DNA from: Candidatus Parabeggiatoa sp. nov. 3 | Lineage (GTDB): Bacteria > Pseudomonadota > Gammaproteobacteria > Beggiatoales > Beggiatoaceae | Assembly: GCA_003645185.1 (NCBI GenBank) | Contig: QNEL01000007.1 | Location: 1 to 40,462 of the forward strand | Direction: 5' to 3' | Length of the DNA: 40,462 bases | Shown here: positions 2,602 through 33,500 of the stretch, one piece after another | Position numbering within the stretch: the stretch's first letter is position 1 | Layout of the letters: the number at the start of each line of letters is the position of its first letter | Notes under the pieces: generated by a model | What the model was told of the DNA's origin: nothing | Database searches by the model: none | The model's input: the letters and a program-made list of their open reading frames with translations, nothing else | Translations under genes and position numbers: made by a program

Positions 2602-3024
2602 GTGAAAGGGGATAAAGGGGGCCGCGATAAATCGTACCATGCTTTAAGCAGTATAAGTTGCCCAAGTTGCCCAAGGCCAAAAATAGATAAATTCTGGACA
2701 CCTGAACTTTTGAACAAAACTATATTTCACGCAAAAGTTTCGCGTAGCGAAACTGTATTTCACGCTAAAGTTTCGCGAGCGAAACTTTAGCGTGAAATGT
2801 GAAATAATGAACAGTCAATGTTCACGCCAGTTTTGAGTTTTACTGATATTAATGTTCTATTCACATTCAATACCTTCGCTATTGTTAAATAACATTTTTT
2901 AATCCGTATTTTAGAGGCCTTTGACAAACACCAAAACTTAGATGGTGGGCAAGTTCGTTTCGACTCCGTCGAAACGAACTTACCCACCCTACATTTATTT
3001 TTAAACAACAATAGGAATCACAAT
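2602..3024. repeat. intergenic palindrome cluster before the 5'-nucleotidase
   Basis: No gene is supported. Two palindrome families are present. One is the TTTCACGC...GCGTGAAA family: a half copy from about 2724 and a complete 40-bp palindrome at 2758-2797. The other is a long hairpin at 2941-2993 with outer arms GATGGTGGGCAAG / CTTACCCACCC and inner arms CGTTTCGAC / GTCGAAACG. A TTGACA at 2921-2926 could be a -35 element, but the hairpin begins only 14 bases after it and no good -10 follows at normal spacing. AGGAAT just before 3025 is the ribosome-binding site of the nucleotidase gene. Confidence 0.7.
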
Positions 3025-4818
3025 ATGACAAAACCTTTTACAAACAAGAGATTACCTCTTGTGCCTGTCTTAACAGGCGTTCTGATTTTTGGAACGCAGG
3101 GCTGTCAGGATGAGAATCAGGCCAGTTCCACCACGAACACCCCTTTTCGTGTTCACTTGCTCCACATTGATGATCATCATTCCCATTTGGTGGAAGAAGA
3201 CTATGATCTGAAATTTGACAGCGTAGAAACGCGGGTTAAACTGGGCGGTTTTGCCAGAGTCGCTGCCAAAATTAAGGAACTGAGAAACAGTGCGGTAAAT
3301 CCGCTGGTACTCCACAGCGGGGATGCGTTGCAAGGTACACTGTACTATACCTTATTTAAAGGTGATGCTGATGTGAAACTGATGAACACAGTCGGCTTTG
3401 ATGCCTTTGAGTTGGGCAACCATGAATTTGATGATGGCAATGCCGTATTAGCGAACTTTCTCAAACAGGCCAATTTCCCGGCCATTGCGGCTAATATCGA
3501 TTTTTCTCAAAGTGCGGAATTGAAAGGACTGGTTAAGCCTTACCTGATTAAAGAGGTGGGTGGTGAACAAGTCGGGCTGATTGGCATAGACACCCTGAAA
3601 ACCCTTTATAGTTCCTCACCCGGTAAGGACTTAAAGTTCTCGGGTGAAGTCGAAACGGCCACAAAAATGGTTAAAGAACTCGAAGACAAGGGCATCAATA
3701 AAATCATCCTGATGACCCATTACGGCTATACCCAAGATCAGGCCCTTGCCAAACAGGTTGGCGGCATTGATGTGATTATTGGCGGGGATTCCCACACACT
3801 TTTAGGTGACTTAACCGAGCTTGGCCTGACTTCAAAAGGCCCTTATCCCACCCAAGTCACTTCACCTCGTGGTGAACCGGTTTGTATTGCCCACGCATGG
3901 CAATATTCTTATGTGGTGGGTTCTTTGAATGTGGCTTTTGATGACAAAGGGCTTGTCACAGAATGTGAAGGCAATCCGGTTTTGCTGGTTGGCGATAGTT
4001 TTCAACAGTGGGATACCAATGGCGAGAGAAAACCGGTGGATGCTAAGACACAAGCCAATATTGAGGCTATTATTGCCAACAACCCCAATATCGACATTGT
4101 CAAACCTGATCCCATCATAGCCCAACAATTGGCGGGTTATACTGAACAGGTAGAAAAACTCTCCCAAGAAGTAATTGGGGAAGCCGCTGAGAACTTATTG
4201 CATATCCGTATCCCCGGCACTCATGAATCGGGTGTTGAACTACCCAATGGCAGCCAGATTGTCCCTGTCGTTGCAGAAGCCTATCTCTGGCAATTGAACA
4301 GTCGAAACTATGACGCTGATCTCATTATCCAAAATGCCGGTGGGGTGCGTATTGATCTAGCCAAGGGTGATATTACCATTGAAACGGCCTACACCTTACT
4401 GCCGTTCACTAACACCCTTTACGTGTTGGAAATGAGCGGGGCTGAAGTCAAACAAGTGCTTGAAGATGCCTTGAGTAATTACTTGGATAAGGGCGGTTCC
4501 GACGGTTCTTTTCCTTATGGTGCCAGTATCCGCTATACGATTGAAGCCAAACGTCCTTTGAATCAACGTGTTACCCAGCTTGATATCCGAGATAAGGCCG
4601 GTAAATGGTTGCCTCTTGAGCTGGCTCAAATGTACAAAGTGGGAACGATTGCTTTTCTCACCAACGGCCTAGATGGTTATAGCACCTTTGCTCAAGTTGT
4701 AGAAGATGGGCGAGGTATTGATACCTATTTTGACTATGCCGAATCGTTTGTCAATTATGTCAAGGAAGTGGGTACCCTGACAGTACCTGAAGAGACTGGT
4801 GTGACTTACATCAAATAA
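3025..4818 (+). CDS. 5'-nucleotidase / UDP-sugar hydrolase family lipoprotein
   Basis: 597 residues. An N-terminal export signal ends in GTQGC at Cys27, a plausible though imperfect lipobox, so the protein is probably anchored in the envelope facing the periplasm. Metallophosphoesterase motifs are in order: LLHIDDHHSH (45-54), LHSGDALQG (96-104), ELGNHEFDDG (129-138), THYGYT and GGDSHTLLG; these supply the two-metal site. The C-terminal half is the 5'-nucleotidase substrate domain, with NAGGVRIDLAKGDIT and LLPFTNTLYVLEMSG. Length and order match UshA/YfkN-type enzymes that hydrolyse nucleoside monophosphates or UDP-sugars outside the cytoplasm. AGGAAT gives the ribosome-binding site. Its leader and first four codons are repeated at 5208-5254. 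Exact substrate cannot be read from sequence. Confidence 0.93.
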   Translation: MTKPFTNKRLPLVPVLTGVLIFGTQGCQDENQASSTTNTPFRVHLLHIDDHHSHLVEEDYDLKFDSVETRVKLGGFARVAAKIKELRNSAVNPLVLHSGDALQGTLYYTLFKGDADVKLMNTVGFDAFELGNHEFDDGNAVLANFLKQANFPAIAANIDFSQSAELKGLVKPYLIKEVGGEQVGLIGIDTLKTLYSSSPGKDLKFSGEVETATKMVKELEDKGINKIILMTHYGYTQDQALAKQVGGIDVIIGGDSHTLLGDLTELGLTSKGPYPTQVTSPRGEPVCIAHAWQYSYVVGSLNVAFDDKGLVTECEGNPVLLVGDSFQQWDTNGERKPVDAKTQANIEAIIANNPNIDIVKPDPIIAQQLAGYTEQVEKLSQEVIGEAAENLLHIRIPGTHESGVELPNGSQIVPVVAEAYLWQLNSRNYDADLIIQNAGGVRIDLAKGDITIETAYTLLPFTNTLYVLEMSGAEVKQVLEDALSNYLDKGGSDGSFPYGASIRYTIEAKRPLNQRVTQLDIRDKAGKWLPLELAQMYKVGTIAFLTNGLDGYSTFAQVVEDGRGIDTYFDYAESFVNYVKEVGTLTVPEETGVTYIK

Positions 4819-4957: not shown

Positions 4958-4959
4958 TA

Positions 4960-5115
4960 TAGCGTTTCCCGATTGAATAAAATACAAAATCAATCATAAA
5001 AAAGATTAAAATGCTAAGGCCCCGAAGAGGTTGAATATGAATAGCCCCAGGTTTCACCTGGGGTTGCATGGAGGAGGCATAAAATGTTTGTATTTAACCC
5101 AATCGGGAAACGCTA
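4960..5115. mobile_element. MITE-like element with TAGCGTTTCCCGATT terminal inverted repeats
   Basis: A 156-bp non-coding element. Its left end TAGCGTTTCCCGATTGAATA is mirrored at the right by the complement ending AATCGGGAAACGCTA. TA dinucleotides flank both ends (4958-4959 and 5116-5117), as expected for TA-target insertion by Tc1/mariner-IS630-like transposases. The interior holds a small hairpin, GCCCCAGG TTTCA CCTGGGG. A second copy is at 20305-20591 and a single end is at 30060. No transposase is encoded; mobilisation in trans is inferred. Confidence 0.75.
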
Positions 5116-5254
5116 TAGATGGTGGGCAAGTTCGTTTCGACTTCGTCGAAACGAACTTACCCACCATTTCACGCTAAAGTTTCGCGGAGCGAAACTTTAG
5201 CGTGAAATACATTTATTTTTAAACAACAAGAGGAATCACAATATGACAAAACAG
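5116..5254 (+). repeat. duplicated leader and first codons of the 5'-nucleotidase gene
   Basis: This stretch repeats 2939-3037: the GATGGTGGGCAAG hairpin, the CATTTATTTTTAAACAACAA leader, the ribosome-binding site (AGAGGAATCACAAT) and the start codon with MTK. The frame then closes after five codons (MTKQK). Compared with the upstream copy, a perfect 41-bp palindrome (TTTCACGC... with 19-bp arms, 5167-5207) is inserted between the hairpin and the leader. The result is a translation-competent start that leads nowhere, upstream of the ATP-grasp gene. Confidence 0.85.
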
Positions 5255-6168: not shown

Positions 6169-6445
6169 TTAAAATAAGATGGGGCCGGCAACAAAAACAC
6201 GTTACCCACCATTTCACGCAGCGAACCTTCGGTGTGCTACGCTAAACTTTAGCGTGAGCCGAAGGCCAGCGAAGCTAAATACATAAAAGTTTAAATTTAT
6301 AACCGCGTGCAGTGTATAAAAATTGCTAGAATTTAAGAAATTAATGGTGTTTTTCCATTCTTTGAAAGCTTTCATAACGAAAATCACAAGTATCAGCGCA
6401 ATAGGTTCATTCAATTCGCCATGAATCAGCTAACCCGATACGTGC
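6169..6445. repeat. intergenic, degenerate palindromes
   Basis: No gene is supported. From 6190 to about 6280 lies a mosaic of a partial GTTACCCACCAT arm and a decayed TTTCACGC...GCGTGA palindrome containing GCTAAACTTTAGC. The rest is AT-rich and featureless to my reading. The region separates convergent genes. Confidence 0.5.
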
Positions 6446-12592: not shown

Positions 12593-13852
12593 TCAATTCA
12601 ATTGAATCCGCTGCCCCCAAGGCACTTTTTGTTTACCCTTCACTAACCATATCACAGGATAAGCTGGCATAGTTGGCGGAAATTCCCCTTCCGCATCGCT
12701 AAAATAAACCAATAAATCAGGTGATTGCAATTCGCGCTCAACATATTCAAATACCGGTTTAAAAGAAGTGCCCCCACCGCCAATCAAATCACGGGGCGCG
12801 GTAAACTCTTCCCAAGGTTCATATATCCAAGGCCCCCCCTCTGCCAATTTGGCATCGCAAGCCAATAACGTGATTTTCGCCGACAACTGGCCTTTAATCG
12901 CATTGATTTCGGCCAAACAGTGCGCGATTTCCTCATCACTCACCGAACCGCTGATATCTAAAGCCACCACGATATCTAATTGAGTAGAGCGTAAACTGGG
13001 AAAAATCGCCGTTCCCTCGCGTCGTGAAGGGCGCGTATAAGTATAATCGTTTCGGGCCCCCATTGTCATATAACGCGCCAACAACATACGCCAAGGTAAT
13101 TGCGGTTGCAAGAGATGATCAACCATTCGCGCCATCGCGCCACCCAGTTTACCCGATTGCATAGCTTGTTGCGCCGCACCCGCTAAACGTTGTTGCCATT
13201 GGACATCAAGATTTTGGCGCTCATTATCATTTAAAGGAGGCGGTTGCGGTACACCAGCAGACTGTTCTTTCACCTCCGGCTGCCCAAGACTCGGGGCCTG
13301 TTGATTGTCGTCCTGCTCATCGCACGACTGCCCAGGCTTATCGCCAGAATCATCAGGCTGCTTATTCAAATCACTCCCTTGCCCATCGGTTTGCCCCCAA
13401 GCCTCATTTTCATAAACATGCCTATCCATTGGTTCATCGCTATTATTCTCATCAATAGTGGGATAAATTTCTTCGGCCGTCATCCCTTCATGGCTTTCAT
13501 CAACCCACACACCAGGCGGTGGCGTTAAACCCTCCTTGAGTAATAAGGGATTAATAGCATAATCACAAGCCAAATCCCAACGAAATTTCTGACGATGTTG
13601 ACGGCGAGCAAAATGCGATAACGCACAATGTAAGGCCTCATGGGCCAAGACAAATTGCACCTGCTCCACACTCAAAACCTCAATATAATCAGGATTATAA
13701 TAAAAACGCCGCGCATCAGTCGCCGTAGTCGGACACCATTTCGGTTCAGCGGCCAGCATCGGTAAACGCAATACCAAGGCCCCTAAAAAGGGTTTATCCA
13801 TAATCAACTTAGTACGGGCTCTCGCTAATTTCGTTTCAATCTCTTTTTGCAT
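12593..13852 (-). CDS. DUF2201 putative metallopeptidase with VWA-like domain
   Basis: 419 residues. The N-terminal metallopeptidase-like domain carries HEALH at 71-75 and, downstream, WDLACDYAIN with a likely third metal ligand. A low-complexity, acidic, Gln-rich linker (about 150-215) follows. The C-terminal VWA-like domain holds a MIDAS motif DISGS (299-303) and GGGGTSFKPVFE. This pairing of domains is the DUF2201 family, normally encoded beside a MoxR-type ATPase; the likely partner here is at 1558-2601. Function is unproven: probably a protein-remodelling or protease-like complex. The start ATG at 13852 is conserved in both decayed copies (16221-16505 and 19497-19992). No good ribosome-binding site is visible. 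Confidence 0.9.
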   Translation of the reverse strand: MQKEIETKLARARTKLIMDKPFLGALVLRLPMLAAEPKWCPTTATDARRFYYNPDYIEVLSVEQVQFVLAHEALHCALSHFARRQHRQKFRWDLACDYAINPLLLKEGLTPPPGVWVDESHEGMTAEEIYPTIDENNSDEPMDRHVYENEAWGQTDGQGSDLNKQPDDSGDKPGQSCDEQDDNQQAPSLGQPEVKEQSAGVPQPPPLNDNERQNLDVQWQQRLAGAAQQAMQSGKLGGAMARMVDHLLQPQLPWRMLLARYMTMGARNDYTYTRPSRREGTAIFPSLRSTQLDIVVALDISGSVSDEEIAHCLAEINAIKGQLSAKITLLACDAKLAEGGPWIYEPWEEFTAPRDLIGGGGTSFKPVFEYVERELQSPDLLVYFSDAEGEFPPTMPAYPVIWLVKGKQKVPWGQRIQLN

Positions 13853-14241
13853 GGGTTGTCAGTTATCAGTTATCAGTTATCAATTATCAATTATCAATTA
13901 TCAACAGACTGTGTGGATATTTTATCCAGTCGCAACGCCCGATATCAATTAATCGGCCAAACCTGACAGGTTTTGAAAACCTGTCAGGTTTTCAAAGTCA
14001 TTGATAATTGATAATTAGTCATTAATACGATAAGTGTTCTTTTATCGGTTAGATTTCGCCTCTAGGCCTCTTTTCCTTTTTATATTAATTTGTCATAATA
14101 CGCGCTCTATTTTCTGGCTAAATGGAACTGTGGTGTTTTTTTGCCACATTTACGCCTTGACTGAAAAGACTGACGTGAATAAAACTTATAAAATCAAGCC
14201 TTTAAAAAAACTATCGTTGGCAATCCAATGAGAGGCAGTTA
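13853..14241. repeat. copy A of the upstream repeat unit
   Basis: The DNA upstream of the intact DUF2201 gene is repeated at 16506-16812, 19993-20235 and, in part, 20236-20633. In order it holds tandem CAGTTATCA/CAATTATCA units; a block containing CTGTGTGGATATTTTATCC and CGATATCAATTAATCGGCC; the double palindrome AAACCTGACAGGTTTTG...CAGGTTT at 13959-13991; and about 250 bp of unique-looking sequence ending near GAGAGGC. A short open frame in the last part is not conserved in copy B and is not called as a gene. Confidence 0.85.
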
Positions 14242-15300: not shown

Positions 15301-15638
15301 CAAGGGGCGCATTCCCAAAAAAAGGGTCATTTTGCTTTCATAAATTTTTCGGCCCGCTTTTAGTGAAAAATTCATTTTTCGGCAGTTTTTAGTGAAAAAT
15401 TCATTTTTCGGCCGCTTTTAGTGCAAAATTCATTTTGCGGCCCACTTGGAGTGCAAAATTCATTTTGCTGCCCGCTTTTAGTGAAAAATTCATTTTGCGG
15501 CCCGCTTGGAGTGCAAAATTCATTTTGCTGCCCGCTTTTAGTGAAAAATTCATTTTGCGGCCCGCTTTTAGTGAATGTTATTTTGCTGATCGCCAAGATT
15601 GATAATGAGCTTTTTTTGGGAATGCGCCCCCCTTCAAG
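15301..15638. repeat. eight-unit 30-bp minisatellite framed by inverted repeats
   Basis: An inverted repeat, GGGGCGCATTCCCAAAAAAAG at 15304-15324 with its exact complement at 15610-15630, encloses a tandem array at 15350-15578. The array has eight units of 28-30 bp of the form CGGCCCGCTTTTAGTGAAAA / ATTCATTTTG. Two variants (CTTTTAGTGA and CTTGGAGTGC) alternate in the middle. There are no spacers, so it is not CRISPR. Open frames across it are produced by the repeat. It could be a non-autonomous element or a protein-binding array. Confidence 0.85.
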
Positions 15639-17026: not shown

Positions 17027-18478
17027 ATGACCTATTGGCATATGCAATTACACCCCAATGCCCCCCATTTTAACCCTGAAAGAAAGATTCTGGAACAAAA
17101 GCAGGTTATTGGCTTAGGTGACTGGCCGGAAGGCAAGGGGCAAATCGCTCAATTTAAACAAGCAATGAGTCTATGCGATATTGTTTTGATCAAGCATGGA
17201 AGTCGGCCGATTGCTTTGGTTGAGGTGATTGGCGAGTACGACTATATTAAAAAGGTGAATAAGGATTTGGACTGGTTTCCACATCGCCGCAATATCAAAG
17301 TCATTGCTTTTATGGATGAGGTTAAGAATGATTTTCCCTCCCCCAGAGGCACTTTAAAAAAATCGGTCAATAGATATACCCCAACGTATCAATATATTAA
17401 CCAGTGGTATAGCAGCGTTATGGCACCCGATTTAAACAAACAAGGACTTAAAATCAGAACACTGTATATTAATCACTACAAAATGTTCTATGACTTTAAA
17501 CTGAATTTTTTAGATAAAGACAATAAATTGCCATCTGTTACCGTTCTTGCTGGTATTAATGGCAGTGGCAAGACAACGCTTTTGGAATATATTGGTGGTT
17601 TTGATACCAGCCCGAAGTTCGATGGTGAGGAATATCTTGAAATTTATTTAAATGGTGAACCATTAACCATTTATAAAGACAGTAAAAAGAAACAGACTAA
17701 TGGTATTCGAGAATATAAAAGCAGTGTGATTTATTGTCCGGTTGATTTTGGCAATCTAGTCGATTTAGAAGAAAAGATTAAAAGCTATATTGATGAGTTA
17801 ATGTTTGAACGAGACTTAAAAGCCAGTGAGGCTTACGGAGAGTTGCGTCAGAATATCAGTGAAATCTTCTCTGAGTTGGGTTTGGGGATCAACTTTAGCG
17901 GGTTGGATAGGAACAAAGAGATTTATTTTGAAAATCAGAATGGTGAACGTTTTGGTATTGATGCGCTTTCTACCGGGGAAAAGACTCTGTTAACGAAAGT
18001 GCTGTATCTGTATCTGAGTGAAATTAAAAATAGCCTTATTCTTATTGATGAGCCGGAATTATCCTTACACCCAACTTGGCAAAATCACATATTGCAACAG
18101 TATGAAAATTTTGCAGACAAGAATAATAACCAGATCATATTGGCAACCCATTCACCCCATATATTAGCCAGTGCTAAAAGCAATAGCATAAGACTGCTGA
18201 ATTTCAATAAAGGGAAAGTTGAAATATTCGATAGTTTTGACCAAAGCTATGGCCTTGAGTTTAGCCAAATATTAACGGATATTATGGGAGTCAAGCATTT
18301 AAGAACACCAAAAGTAGAAGAGCAGCTTGGCACAATCAAAGAACTGATTGCCTCTGATCAGTTTAAAACGGAGGAGTTTAAAAGTTTATGGCAGGAACTT
18401 GAAAAGCATTTAGGTTCAAAGGATGTCGATTTAAACTTATTGAAACTTGAAATGCGTATGAGAGAGAAAAGTGTTTAA
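17027..18478 (+). CDS. ptuA: Septu-like ATPase (PtuA-type) with an extra N-terminal PUA/EVE-like domain
   Basis: 483 residues. Residues 140-425 are an SMC/ABC-type ATPase: KIRTLYINHYKMF (142-154), Walker A GINGSGKTT (176-184), signature LSTGEKT (314-320), Walker B LILIDEPELSLHP (337-349) and the switch histidine in LATHSPHI (372-379). With the HNH gene that follows, this matches the two-gene Septu anti-phage system, in which the ATPase binds the nuclease and releases or activates it on infection. The first ~130 residues are unusual: GLGDWPEG, then AMSLCDIVLIKHGSRPIALVE and VIGEYDY resemble the F-x-x-M-x-x-G-D-I-V-x-V pattern and beta-strands of PUA/EVE-like readers of modified bases. The truncated paralogue at 20703 starts exactly at the ATPase core, showing the front domain is an addition. 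The front-domain call is inferred. Confidence 0.85.
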   Translation: MTYWHMQLHPNAPHFNPERKILEQKQVIGLGDWPEGKGQIAQFKQAMSLCDIVLIKHGSRPIALVEVIGEYDYIKKVNKDLDWFPHRRNIKVIAFMDEVKNDFPSPRGTLKKSVNRYTPTYQYINQWYSSVMAPDLNKQGLKIRTLYINHYKMFYDFKLNFLDKDNKLPSVTVLAGINGSGKTTLLEYIGGFDTSPKFDGEEYLEIYLNGEPLTIYKDSKKKQTNGIREYKSSVIYCPVDFGNLVDLEEKIKSYIDELMFERDLKASEAYGELRQNISEIFSELGLGINFSGLDRNKEIYFENQNGERFGIDALSTGEKTLLTKVLYLYLSEIKNSLILIDEPELSLHPTWQNHILQQYENFADKNNNQIILATHSPHILASAKSNSIRLLNFNKGKVEIFDSFDQSYGLEFSQILTDIMGVKHLRTPKVEEQLGTIKELIASDQFKTEEFKSLWQELEKHLGSKDVDLNLLKLEMRMREKSV

Positions 18479-19085
18479 AATAACAAAAAGTAATCCGCCG
18501 GATTATTTTGAAAGAGCTAAGCAGAAGGTTGAACGGCCATTACAATCTGATGCTTGGAAAGATCGGCATATAAATGGTATTAGAAAAGCACTGCGGGAAC
18601 ATATCTTATTGGAGGAACAATTCATACTTTGTGCTTATTGTGAGAAAGAGATTGATGAAACATCTGAAAAATCGAATATCGATCACTTTAAAACCAGACA
18701 TTTATTTCCCAAATTGACGCTTGATTATAATAATTTATTGGTATCGTGTAATTCAGTTGGCAGATGTTCAAATTATAAAGATCAAAATATTAGGTTAGCT
18801 GATTATAACAAAATTATTAACCCTGTTTTAGATAATCCTAATGATTTTTTTAATTACCATCTGACGGGTGAAATCTATCCTAAACACAGTTTAAGCCCAA
18901 GCGATAAAGAGCGTGCTGAATCGACACTTGAGTTTTTTCAGCTCAATCATCGTGGCTTAACTGAAGAAAGAAAAAAGATTTCCAAGCAATTAGAAAAATT
19001 AAGAGGACAAATAACGAAAGAAGAAGTTTTTAAATACTTCTCAAGTTATAAAAGTTTTATAGAATATCTTTTTGCAATGTTATGA
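18471..19085 (+). CDS. ptuB: Septu-like HNH nuclease (PtuB-type, TIGR02646-like)
   Basis: 204 residues from a GTG at 18471 that overlaps the ATPase stop by 8 bp, so the two are co-translated. The HNH core is intact: CAYC (C54, C57), NIDHF with D71-H72, LTLDYNNLLVSC with N87/N88 and C93, then RCSNYKD with C99. The four cysteines would bind a structural zinc and the Asp-His-Asn set the catalytic metal. The C-terminal FIEYLFAM is usual for the family. It is the effector that would cut nucleic acid when released by the ATPase. No reverse transcriptase is nearby, so this is plain Septu and not the retron-associated form. The last 40 bases overlap the antisense tail of a decayed toxin gene. Confidence 0.9.
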   Translation: MFKITKSNPPDYFERAKQKVERPLQSDAWKDRHINGIRKALREHILLEEQFILCAYCEKEIDETSEKSNIDHFKTRHLFPKLTLDYNNLLVSCNSVGRCSNYKDQNIRLADYNKIINPVLDNPNDFFNYHLTGEIYPKHSLSPSDKERAESTLEFFQLNHRGLTEERKKISKQLEKLRGQITKEEVFKYFSSYKSFIEYLFAML

Positions 19086-19496: not shown

Positions 19497-19992
19497 GCCC
19501 CCATTGTCATATATAATTAGGGCGCTCAGAAAAATCACTGCCCATCTGTTTGCCCTGAAGCCTCATTTTCATAAACGGCCCTATCCGCTGTTATTCTCTG
19601 AAATAATCGGATAGATTTCCTCGGCCATTATCCCTTCATGGCTTTTTTCATCAACCCACACACCGGGCGCTGGTGTTAAACCCTCTTTGTTGTGAAGGGA
19701 TTGATAGCATAATCACAAGCCAAATCCCTATTTCACATTTCACGCGCTACAAAGCGCTTCGCTTCACCGCGCGCGTGAATCGAAGATCAGCGAAGCTAAA
19801 TAATGTTTTTGCGCGCAAAAACTTCTTAAGTGAAATATAATAAAAACGGCGCGCATCAGTCGCCGTAGTCGGACACCATTTAGGTTCAGCGGCCAGCATA
19901 GGCAAACGCAATACCAAAGCCCCCAAAAAAGGTTTATCCATAATCAGCTTAGTACGCGCTCTGGCTAATTTGGTTTCAATTTCTTTTTGCAT
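19497..19992 (-). pseudogene. copy C: decayed DUF2201 gene fragment
   Basis: Reading leftward from the ATG at 19992, residues 1-52 match the intact gene at 12593-13852. The same palindrome insertion as copy B follows (about 19797-19838 plus extra palindrome DNA to 19737). Homology then resumes at codons for FRWDLACDYAIN and continues, with frameshifts and deletions, through the DESHEGMTAEEIYP and ENEAWG regions. It ends in a short piece like 13054-13075. About 60% of the N-terminal half is represented. It is clearly non-functional. Confidence 0.9.
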
Positions 19993-20304
19993 GGGTTTTC
20001 AGTTATCAGTTTCACGCAAAAGTTTTGCGCGCAAAACTGTATTTCACGCAAAAGTTGCGCGCAACTTTTGCGTGAAATGTGAAAATCAGTTATCAGTTTC
20101 AGGCAAAAGTTTCGCGGAGCGAAACTTTTGCCTGAAAATCAGTTATCAATTATCAATTATCAATTATCAAGAGACTGTGTGGATATTTTATCCAGTCGCA
20201 ACGCCCGATATCAATTAATCGGCCAAACCTGTCAGGTTTTCAATTGTCAATTATCAACAGACTGTGTGGATATCTTATCCAGTCGCAACGCCCGATATCA
20301 ATTC
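19993..20304. repeat. copy C of the upstream repeat unit and start of copy D, with inserted palindromes
   Basis: The CAGTTATCA tract seen clean in copies A and B is here broken by TTTCACGC-family palindromes: a half copy at 20010-20038, a full copy at 20042-20077, and a TTTCAGGC variant at 20097-20137. The CTGTGTGGATATTTTATCC block then follows. It is repeated again at 20256-20303 as copy D, which is split by the MITE at 20305. Confidence 0.88.
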
Positions 20305-20591
20305 TAGCGTTTCCCGATTGAATAAAGTACACTTATGCACCGACGCAAAATAACATGCACTCCAAAAACGGCAAAATAAGTACTGAACCATAAATTTTCA
20401 GGTATTTTAATAGAAACAACCGGGGCATGAGCAAGGGATTGCCCCTACGGGTACGGTTGTAGGGGCAATCCCTTGCTCATGCCCAAAATACCTGTTTATT
20501 TGTGCTTCAGTACTTAACATGCATTCCAAAAACGGCAAAATAAATTTTTTACTAAAATCAAATTTGTACTTCATTCAATCGGGAAACGCTA
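20305..20591. mobile_element. second TAGCGTTTCCCGATT MITE, containing a nested element
   Basis: The terminal inverted repeats TAGCGTTTCCCGATTGAATA and their complement enclose 287 bp. The insertion splits copy D exactly at the TA in CAATTAATCGGCC, which is intact in copies A, B and C. The right TA is kept and the left now reads TC. A second element (20379-20514) is nested inside, at a TA between two copies of TAACATGCAYTCCAAAAACG. No transposase is encoded. Confidence 0.85.
20379..20514. mobile_element. nested AGTACTGAA inverted-repeat element, copy 1
   Basis: A 136-bp element. Its ends AGTACTGAACCATAAATTTT and the complement of AAATTGTGCTTCAGTACT-like sequence form ~30-bp terminal inverted repeats flanked by TA on both sides (20377-20378, 20515-20516). 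The interior is a long hairpin, GGCATGAGCAAGGGATTGCC mirrored across CTACGGGTACGGTTGTAG. A second copy is at 20850-20957. Confidence 0.82.
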
Positions 20592-20702
20592 TAATCGGCC
20601 AAACCTGACAGGTTTTTAAAACCTGTCAGGTTTTCAGGGAACGATAAAACTCGGTCAAACTAACATTTAATTAATGAACAAAAATACAAAGTGATATTCA
20701 AT

Positions 20703-20864
20703 ATGAAAATCAGGAAAATTCAGATTAAAAATTACAAAATGTTTAATGACGTGACGCTAGATTTTACGGATAGTAATGGAGAAACTTTAGAGACTATTGT
20801 CATAGCGGGCCTCAATGGTGCCGGAAAAACCTCTTTACTCCAGTTATTAAGTACTGAACCATAA
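20703..20864 (+). pseudogene. N-terminal stump of a second Septu-type ATPase
   Basis: A 53-codon frame from ATG 20703. KIRKIQIKNYKMFNDVTLDF and the Walker A GLNGAGKTS align closely with residues 142-184 of the intact ATPase at 17027. The similarity begins at Met1, so this paralogue lacks the extra front domain. After LLQLL the frame enters the AGTACTGAA element at 20850 and stops within it. No continuation of the ATPase or a second HNH gene was found beyond. Confidence 0.88.
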
Positions 20865-20957
20865 ATTTTCAGGTATTTTAATTAAAAGAAACAACCAAGA
20901 AGAGGGGCATGAGCAAGCCTTTGCTGTAAAATACCTGTTTATTTGTGCTTCAGTACT
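20850..20957. mobile_element. AGTACTGAA inverted-repeat element, copy 2
   Basis: A 108-bp element with the same ends as 20379-20514 and TA on each side (20848-20849, 20958-20959). The internal hairpin is shortened and degenerate. It interrupts the second ATPase gene just after the Walker A motif. Confidence 0.82.
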
Positions 20958-20959
20958 TA

Positions 20960-21126
20960 TTTTCACGCCAAAGATTTTGCGCGCAAAATCTTTTTCACGC
21001 AAAAGTTGAGCGAAGCGAAACTTTTGCTTTGCGTGAAAGCGTGAAAAGCTGTTGGCTGATGGGGTCTCGATATTTTCGCTCTCTTGCACTAGGCAACCCG
21101 TTTTTGTTGTATTAACTGATATTACC
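20960..21126. repeat. TTTCACGC palindromes downstream of the TPR-OmpA gene
   Basis: Two overlapping members lie at about 20960-21045: one with GATTTTGCGCGCAAAATC at its centre, one with AAAGTTGAGCGAAGCG. The remaining 80 bases to the OmpA-gene stop hold no recognised signal. Confidence 0.65.
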
Positions 21127-27120: not shown

Positions 27121-27458
27121 TCTATTTATCAGTTATCAGTTATCAGTTATCAGTTATCAGTTTCACGCAAAAGTTGCGCGCAACTTTTGCGTGTGAAATG
27201 TGGAAATCAGTTATCAATTATCACTGATAATTTTAGGGCGTTTTATTTTACTAAAAATAGGCGGGTTGTAGTAGTGGCTTGATGGGTAGGGTGAAGAGAT
27301 AGGATAGAACGCTGATGAGACTGATTGTCATGATCAACACTGATTTGTTGATAAGCAGAAATCAGATAGAACGTTGATGAGACTGATTATCATGATAATC
27401 GCTGATCTTTTATATTTAATCAGTGTTAATCAGTTCAATCAGTTCAATCAGTGTTCTA
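27121..27458. repeat. intergenic repeat cluster between kinase and SPINDLY genes
   Basis: Tandem CAGTTATCA units start at 27127. A TTTCACGC palindrome is inserted at 27161-27199, after which the tract resumes (ATCAGTTATCAATTATCA). From 27300 to 27458, GATAGAACGNTGATGAGACT and its neighbours (CTGATTGTCATGATCAACAC, CAGTTCAATCAGTGTTCTAT) form the same family as 12460-12560 and 38525-38573. No gene is supported. Confidence 0.75.
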
Positions 27459-30523: not shown

Positions 30524-33500
30524 ATGATATTCAATTTCAAAAACAGTCTCAGCTTGTGTGCTGTACTGATATTGTGTCTCTTTTCCCATTTGCTCACCGC
30601 AGATATTTTGCGAAACAATGCGATTTGGGAAGTCTTTACTAATCGTAGCTCGGTTTTAGCCATTGAACCGTCTAAAGAAACTGAAATGCTGTGGGTAGGT
30701 ACCGTTGGTGGGCTTGAACAACGTGATCTTAAGACCGGTCAATTAATGCGGGTATTGACTAATTTAGATGGCCTGCCTTCCAATAATATCAGGGCATTGC
30801 TTGCTGATGACGGCGGCCTGTGGATAGGCACGCAGGATGCGGGCCTCGCTTATTTGACTCATGAGGGACAATGGCAGGTTTTTAATACTGATAACTCCGA
30901 TTTACCCCACGATACGATTCATGTCTTAATCAGCGATGAGCGCGGTGGCTTATGGATTGGGACTGATGAAGGGGGCTTGGCTCACTTGAATGCCAGCGCG
31001 AAGTGGCAGGTTTTTAATACTGATAACTCCGATTTACCTCACAATTATGTCAAAGCCTTGGTTAGTGATGGCAGTGGTGGGGTATGGGTAGGCGGGGCCG
31101 GTATTGCCCATTTGGATAATCGAGGGCGAGGCGAGGTTTTTGACACCGAAAATTCGGGCTTGCCGCTTAACGGCATTTTGGCCCTTGCCAGTGATGGCGA
31201 AGGTGGATTATGGGTTAGCACTTATGAAATTGAGGAGGGAGAACGGCAATATGGCGGCCTGACGCATTTCACGCGCAGTGGTGAATGGCAAGTCTTTAAT
31301 AGCAGCAATTCCGAATTGCCCTATAATGGCATCTACGCTTTAGTCAACGATGGCAGCGGCGGGGTATGGATTGCCACCATAAAAGCGGGTTTAGTTCATA
31401 AAACCAATCGCGATGACTGGACACATTTTGATCCCCATAATTCTAAGTTGCCAGATAACACCGTGTATAGCTTGGTTGCTGACAATAACGGTAACCTGTG
31501 GGTTGGCACTGATCTCGGCCTGGCCCGTAAAAATAACCGTGATGAATGGCTGGTTTTTAACGATGATAATTCGGATTTGCCCGATAACATTGTTCAAGCC
31601 TTTATCAGCGATGAAGCAGGGGGCCTGTGGATCGGTACCCGATTTGGTGGTGTCACGTATTTTAGCGCGGCCGGTGATTGGGAGAGTTTTAACACGGAAA
31701 ACTCGGCCTTACCGACTAACGATGTGAATGCACTATTAAATGATGGTAATGGCGGTATCTGGATTGGCACTTATGGCAGCGGCCTCGCGCAGCGGCGCAG
31801 CACTGGAAAATGGAAAGTCTTTAACACGCTTAACTCCGATTTACCCAAAAACGAGATCAATGCCTTTGTCGATGATGGCAGTGGCGGGGTGTGGATAGCG
31901 ACTGATGAGGGCGGATTGGCCCATTTAAATGCCGCAGCTCAATGGGCAGTGTTTAACAGCGATAACTCCGATTTGCCAAACAATGATGTCAATATCGTGA
32001 TCAGCGATGGAAAAGGCGGATTGTGGATGGGTACGAATGAGGGCTTAGCTCACTTTGATGCGCGTTCACAGTGGCAGGTATTTAATATTGTCAATTCTGA
32101 TTTACCGGCCAATCAAATTGTGGCACTTGCGAATGATGATAAAGGGGGCATCTGGGTAGGCACCTATAAAGGAGGATTAGCGCACTTTAATGGCAGCAGT
32201 CAATGGCAGATTTTCAATACCAGCAATTCTGATTTACCCGATGACACCGTTGTTGGGTTAGTACCCGAAAACGAGGGATTGTGGGTAGCGACTTTACGTG
32301 GCGGCCTGACTTATAAAAATAATCGGGGAAAATGGACGACTTTCAATACTGATAATTCTAGCATCCCGACTAATATTCTGCTGACTCTGATGAGTGATGG
32401 TTACAATGGCTTATGGATAGGCCTGTCTTGGGGCGGCGGATTAGCCCATCTGAGTTTTGGAAATCCATTAAGTGGCGAACATGCCGCTATTTTAATTCAT
32501 CCCAAACTGCGAAATCGCAGTGAAATCAAACACTTATCAAACAAAAAGATTGTAGGCCATATTTATCATGCCTTATCTGAACGTTATTACACCCATGAGG
32601 AAATTTATTTCCTCTCTTATGATGTGCTTGATGTGAATGGAGATAGCATCACTGACAGACAGGTTGTCGATGCCCTGAAAAACAGGGAGCCGATGAATTT
32701 AGAAGATATTCGTCAGGCTTTCAATTGGGCGAAAACCCAAGGCAGCTTAAATGAACCCCTGTTAATGACGATTGTGGCAGATAGCCTTTCTGATGGCCAA
32801 TTGATACTCAACGCCGATCCCATGGTGTCTTTAAGTGGCACTGATCTCAAAACCGTGTTGGATGATTACCAACAGACTACCTCAAATGAAGTCATTGTCG
32901 TGATTGAAAGCAGTCGCGCAGGCCGACTCATTCCTCAATTAGAGAATGAAGCATATAAGGGTAAACGCATCATCATTACCAGTACTGATGCCGATAAGCC
33001 CACACAACATCAAGACGTGTTAGGAACAGATGCCTTTAGCTGGGGTTACTTTAACGCCTTACGTCGTGGTAGTAGTTTTGGCGAAGCCTTCGAGAACAAT
33101 CGTGATAAATCACAAACACCACAGTTAAATGATGATGGCGATGGTTCAGCGAATGGTAGTCAAGATGGCCGGATAGCGAAACGCTTCTGTCTGAATGGTT
33201 GTTTTGCGCCATCTTCTGCTAAAACGGTTTACCGTAATGGCGATATCTTACAGATCACCTTAAAAAAGGAACTGTTGCGGGATAAGAGAAAAGACGTTTA
33301 TGTGGCTATCGGTTTACCCAATGGAGGCCCGTTATTTATCTTGACGCGACAGAATGAATTAGTCCCATTTGAAGGAACAAGCTTGTCAGCTTGGGAAGGA
33401 GAAGACGTGGTTGTCGAATTGCCAGTGAATCCAGATTGGCCGCGTGGCGAGTATTCATTGTATTTATTGCGGGTTAAAAAGGGCCAGGAACCCTTAGCAA

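Follow-up and report, generated by a model that had tools for sequence, protein, structure and literature searches.

Filled and empty sites of a probable family of mobile DNA hairpins in Candidatus Parabeggiatoa sp. nov. 3

Most jumping DNA leaves a duplicated target. Among described systems, the one that appears closest in behavior to the palindromes analyzed here is GC42 of yeast mitochondria, a GC cluster formed by a mobile palindrome of 42 nt for which merging and shuffling with other hairpins are described (PMC4478555). The two have in common a similar size, mobility, a mostly intergenic location, hairpin merger and shuffling, and a non-coding nature (PMC4478555), whereas GC42 is mitochondrial and has a putative AG target duplication, and the Parabeggiatoa palindromes are located in a bacterial chromosome, have another sequence, show no duplication, and replace 2 to 3 bases. 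In cyanobacteria, SDR5 inserts into the repeated palindrome HIP1, and does so at a fixed position (Elhai et al. 2008, as relayed in PMC4390886). By the behavior described there, this very small mobile repeat with its fixed-point entry may be compared with the use of a single TAACTGA phase reported below, although sequence and host differ (PMC4390886). REP and REPIN elements with a RAYT are likewise short, palindromic, extragenic, and dispersed in hundreds of copies (PMC3116915, PMC3733652), and REPs combine a tag with a RAYT (PMC3733652); here, in contrast, the perfect palindrome itself is the unit, with neither a GTAG/CGTC tag seen nor a cognate RAYT found. In the related giant sulfur bacterium Candidatus Thiomargarita nelsonii, dispersed palindromic repeats have been reported as consensus sequences, several of which were left unidentified by the authors; the MITE in its hupL measures about 200 bp and has a direct repeat of 10 bp, whereas the palindromes here are 41 bp and have none (PMC4853749). 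Finally, the TAACTGA heptads of Beggiatoaceae (PMC4679880) are direct tandem repeats rather than palindromes, and in this genome they constitute a preferred target, that is, a host and not an element.

The window, by which we mean the whole stretch of DNA that was analyzed (40,462 nt, contig C7), belongs to a draft genome of 8.37 Mb in 853 contigs, and detailed counts and statistics are drawn from a 2.38-Mb sample, or 28% of that genome. The palindrome at 5167-5207, TTTCACGCTAAAGTTTCGC-GGA-GCGAAACTTTAGCGTGAAA, has arms that are complementary at 19 of 19 positions, or at 20 of 20 when A5166 and T5208 are included. It is located within a duplicated nucleotidase leader (Table 1), which a preliminary description had stated to equal its source plus exactly one perfect 41-bp palindrome. 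The palindrome is as described, but "exactly" holds only nearly: once the palindrome is excised in silico, the copy (from 5116) is 96.9% identical to the source (2939-3034) over 96 nt, with the junction base also altered from C to A (empty, CCCACC-C-TACATTT; filled, CCCACC-A-palindrome-TACATTT) and two further SNPs. The nucleotidase of the window shares 78 to 80% identity with homologues in two Candidatus Parabeggiatoa genomes, and the palindrome was looked for in the sister-species nucleotidase leaders and is absent from them. Directly upstream of the duplicated leader, at 4958-5117, there is a copy of an inverted-repeat element of about 160 bp with the ends TATAGCGTTTCCCGATTG / CAATCGGGAAACGCTATA, which is also represented at 20304-20328 and 20572-20594 and whose ends have 92 matches (at most 2 mismatches) in the 2.38 Mb.

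Table 1. Positions in the window of palindrome family members and of the sites with which they are compared
Feature	Positions	Strand	Remarks
Source leader, 5'-nucleotidase gene; empty site CCCACC-C-TACATTT at about 2983-2995	2939-3034	+	By alignment; sister-species leaders also empty
Duplicated nucleotidase leader with palindrome inside	5116-5253	+	Aligned to source leader
Filled site: perfect palindrome, 20-bp arms, GGA triloop	5166-5208		Core 5167-5207
Composite: truncated hairpin (2725-2757), 40-nt palindrome (2758-2797), TGTGAAA closing arm	2725-2804		
Derivative copy, right arm lengthened by mini-hairpin tail GCCGAAGGC-CAGCGAAGCTAAATA	6212-6281	+	
Intact DUF2201 gene (copy A); empty site at about 13694-13696	12593-13852	-	Pfam PF13203 and PF09967; orthologue L241 ungapped there
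Imperfect 43-nt palindrome, DUF2201 fragment B	16306-16348		Gene A continuous at that point
Right part of fragment-B palindrome, kept in fragment C	about 19804-19835		Left part (19738-19803) overwritten by another family member
Nested composite of two hairpins in the copy C CAGTTATCA (TAACTGA) array	20010-20084		Inner 36-nt perfect palindrome 20042-20077
41-nt TTTCAGGC palindrome, same copy C array, between ATCAG and ATCAG	20097-20137		
Another composite (TTTCACGCCAAAG... and TTTCACGCAAAAG...)	20961-21038		
Slightly eroded copy, edge of another TAACTGA array (TTATCAG/TTTCACGC)	27161-27198		

The DUF2201 copies provide further sites of this kind. It had been proposed that fragments B and C share a palindrome absent from the intact gene and that three more palindromes split the CAGTTATCA tract in C. 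For B this was found to be correct, with a palindrome of 43 nt, whereas C holds the right part only; the tract in C is indeed split, not by three independent palindromes but at two places, by a nested pair and by one 41-mer. The latter, at 20097-20137, has a 59-nt match of 100%, array flank included, in the sister genome G028. The palindromes of the window are not due to chance: TTTCACGCNAAAG has 18 matches with at most 2 mismatches (shuffled mean, 5.6; maximum, 11), and 20 mononucleotide shuffles of the window yielded no inverted repeats with arms of at least 14 and a loop of at most 5.

Several other features of the window were observed. Between DUF2201 fragments B and C, at 17027-19085 (+), lies a Septu-type two-gene defense system, consisting of a PtuA ATPase and a PtuB HNH protein with PADLOC matches at E values of 2.5e-85 and 1.9e-49, respectively. 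An element with the ends AGTACTGAACCATAAA..., for which 2.38 Mb contain 119 end matches, is found at 20376-20520 and 20849-20960, and its second copy appears to break a fragment of an ATPase gene (about 20700-20850). A separate palindrome family, AAACCTGACAGGTTTTGAAAACCTGTCAGGTTT, occurs at 13959, 16598, 20601, 30111, 30318, and 33559, with 149 matches in 2.38 Mb. Finally, a 30-nt tandem array (AAAATTCATTTTGCGGCCCGCTTTTAGTG) is positioned downstream of a PIN-domain gene at 15344-15600, and 132-nt periodic repeats, possibly propeller blades, are present within a 1007-aa ORF at 30842-32238.

Filled and empty pairs extend genome-wide, beyond the three originally noted. A paralogous site matching both flanks was found for 94 of 179 elements in the 2.38-Mb sample; about 70 of these sites are clean and empty, and the remainder are family members themselves. 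Palindromes in general are deletion-prone, and partial deletion remnants exist, so it is conceivable that empty sites arose by precise deletion of an ancestral palindrome. At the DUF2201 site this is contradicted, since the insertion point is ungapped coding sequence in both gene A and the G028 orthologue (L241), and the palindrome there is therefore a gain. A member of the genus (G030) that has zero palindromes, and remnants that are partial rather than clean, also speak against ancestral palindromes, which we regard as extremely improbable. The outgroup comparison that might have revealed an ancestral palindrome thus gave the opposite polarity, with the DUF2201 orthologue ungapped and the sister nucleotidase leaders empty. 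In several host repeats, moreover, pre-insertion states outnumber filled ones, with 248 empty ACCCACCCTACA versus 33 with a palindrome arm for the GGTGGG repeat and 264 empty versus 25 filled for the TAACTGA arrays. From the orthologue, the sister leaders, and these counts, the polarity is that of insertion. A palindrome of about 40 nt is present or absent at homologous sites, as for GC clusters, and the notion of a mobile palindrome family finds support in the genome-wide pairs and in this polarity.

When filled sites are compared with clean empty paralogues, the palindrome is usually found in place of 0 to 3 bases. These are TT or AA in TAACTGA arrays, TT in GGGAATAAAC-TT-AACTTTT, TGA or TCA in AACCCCNNNGGGGT-TGA-ATGTGAATAG, and TTT in CAACTGC-TTT-AGCTGTTGG, and at the ACCCACC-C-TACA site one base is substituted; the replaced bases differ by site, and no single cut rule emerges. 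The earlier remark that there is no obvious target duplication is correct outside tandem arrays but overlooked the 2 to 3 bases that are usually replaced. Across 113 non-array contexts, there were no direct repeats of 5 to 8 nt, and 3-nt matches amounted to 4.4%. Direct repeats of 2 nt at the junctions amounted to 2.3% versus 9.1% when shuffled, and no duplication of the AG type was found. Of 49 arms in the TAACTGA heptad arrays, 46 lie against one phase of seven (TTATCAG/TTTCA or AACTGAT/TTTCA); inside an array, the loss of 2 bases and the duplication of 5 look alike. The immediately flanking bases can pair with each other in 68% of 131 contexts versus 41% when shuffled, and consequently the unit is often 43 bp.

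Part of the spread is the copying of host repeats already carrying the palindrome. At least one flank is shared with another element by 138 of 159 elements, some clusters of 7 share both, and the same host sites are also filled in other species (G029, G032, and G033); the 159 elements reduce to 128 contexts without both flanks in common. As host repeats are shared, independent insertions are fewer than copies. The same observations would be expected if the palindromes were immobile and merely carried along when GGTGGG hairpins, AACCCC/CACCTGGGG repeats, and TAACTGA arrays are copied or gene converted. Such carriage does not readily accommodate the occurrence of the same palindromes in eight or more unrelated types of host, in a DUF2201 coding segment, and in 21 contexts that have no flank in common with another element, or the nesting of insertions within arms of the family itself, and as an account of the whole family we consider it unlikely.

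Insertion of a mobile palindrome raises the question of a mobilizing enzyme, for which a Y1/REP-associated transposase had been suggested. REP-type elements that depend on a Y1 (RAYT/IS200-like) transposase for their movement would be short extragenic palindromes at high copy without target duplication, much as seen here, and four Y1_Tnp genes are present in this genome. However, 3 to 7 such genes are present in each of the seven genomes tested, independently of palindrome numbers that range from 0 to 631, and none of the 28 Y1 loci in these genomes has a gene flanked by these palindromes. A palindrome is nearby at one locus only (L031), inside a different repeat family that flanks the gene on both sides. 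In addition, no conserved unpaired GTAG/CGTC tag was detected in the flank base composition of 159 elements, and 2 to 3 target bases are replaced, which together make this route quite improbable and leave the earlier suggestion without support. L031 (G000:C17:2086-5433), where GACTTGAGCTTTTAGACAAC...GCTGTTGGC repeats are found on both sides of the Y1 transposase gene, could itself be a RAYT with its own REP-like family.

The presence of terminal inverted repeats, together with the MITEs reported in the related T. nelsonii (PMC4853749), could point instead to a DDE transposon whose MITEs would carry TTTCACGC as terminal inverted repeats. This seems very improbable, as target duplication is absent outside arrays, only a loop lies between the arms, and no long autonomous parent with TTTCACGC ends was found among repeats of at least 400 bp in 2.38 Mb of the draft genome. 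PD-(D/E)XK nucleases of the YhgA type (PDDEXK_2), a candidate suggested by the T. nelsonii MITE, were rejected, as G030 has the most genes (24) and zero palindromes. A search of viral contigs for carriage by phage gave 0 matches, and an Rfam search of the window gave no family match.

Genome-wide, 631 closed palindromes were counted, compared with 0 in the reversed control, and as in REP and REPIN families these are short, dispersed, and extragenic. Only 2 of 162 sampled palindromes are within ORFs, and 72% of the sequence consists of ORFs of 120 aa or more. Among relatives in the genus, two sister species have 86 and 105 closed palindromes and a third (G030) has 0, and three genomes of another genus have 5, 6, and 13; single-arm pattern searches of the rest of the order and a sample of the class identified no further genome with the palindrome. 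TTTCACGC occurs 359 + 371 times in the 2.38 Mb versus 42 + 40 times for its reverse. As TTTCAGGC is the prevailing form in both the other genus and the sister species, TTTCACGC looks like a derived form that was expanded in this genome.

The palindrome is about 41 bp, with the ends TTTCA-SGC...GCS-TGAAA. Its loop is GRA or the complement about equally often (47:56 by orientation), with 103 of 107 closed 41-mers having TCC (30), GGA (27), TTC (26), or GAA (20). The arms exist in at least eight self-complementary versions, and over 11 stem pairs, 1133 of 1177 cells are paired (shuffled mean, 1033; maximum, 1051). Homogenized arms and inverted spacers are known products of template switching between inverted repeats (PMC8604942; likewise the abstract of PMC8794818), and arm covariation therefore needs no RNA function; both the loop balance and the complementary divergent arms are predicted by template switching. 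A single strand folds into one hairpin (-22.4 kcal/mol; shuffled mean, -4.7). The idea that the two loop orientations fold differently was rejected, as the energy model gives an identical value for both strands.

Insertion into the family's own arms occurs mostly at the junctions CTTTA/ and CTGTA/, and nine places have composites with either junction, two of these places being TAACTGA arrays entered in the standard phase. Some right arms also bear small-hairpin tails (GCC-GAA-GGC, ACC-GAA-GGT, and ATC-GAA-GAT) that vary in a paired fashion, and these tails and composites amount to hairpin merger and shuffling of the GC-cluster type. Half-arm remnants, AAAC-TTTTGCCTGAAA-AACTTT, are present in three host copies and may reflect slippage between AAACTTT repeats. 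Target duplication followed by footprint excision, at which AAC-TT-AAC sites had hinted, was rejected, as the host repeat reads AAA[C/T]T[T/G]AACTTTT in many copies; a search for spacer-less host copies yielded none except the half-arm remnants.

Taken as a whole, these sequence comparisons suggest that the TTTCACGC/TTTCAGGC palindromes are probably a family of non-autonomous mobile DNA hairpins. The palindrome enters extragenic DNA as a unit, usually swapped for 0 to 3 target bases and with no target duplication outside tandem arrays, and prefers a few types of site, including one phase of the TAACTGA heptad. Insertion into its own arms produces composites that recur at separate sites. The patterns in arms and loops suggest that template switching during replication keeps the arms identical and flips the loop, and some copies are eroded to half-arm remnants, probably through slippage between short direct repeats. 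It could be speculated that the mobile form is an extruded or single-stranded hairpin, and that a host or transposon enzyme acting in trans places it into breaks or into single-stranded gaps. A more far-reaching reading is doubtful at present: it takes the palindrome as a self-contained mobile hairpin that passes through an extruded or single-stranded intermediate, exchanges itself for 2 to 3 bases of the target without DDE, Y1/HUH, or known site-specific recombination, and regenerates its arms from one another by fold-back synthesis.

In conclusion, tiny mobile palindromes have been known from mitochondria for decades and very small mobile repeats from cyanobacteria, with the mechanism still unsettled. 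The present case is a bacterial chromosome in which more than 600 copies are accompanied by clean empty sites and by a fixed-phase array target that makes insertion countable. Relatives in the genus with 0, 86, and 105 copies constitute a natural experiment for enzyme discovery. The family shows how spreading hairpins can remain perfect, and it serves as a warning that compensatory changes in such repeats are no evidence of RNA function.
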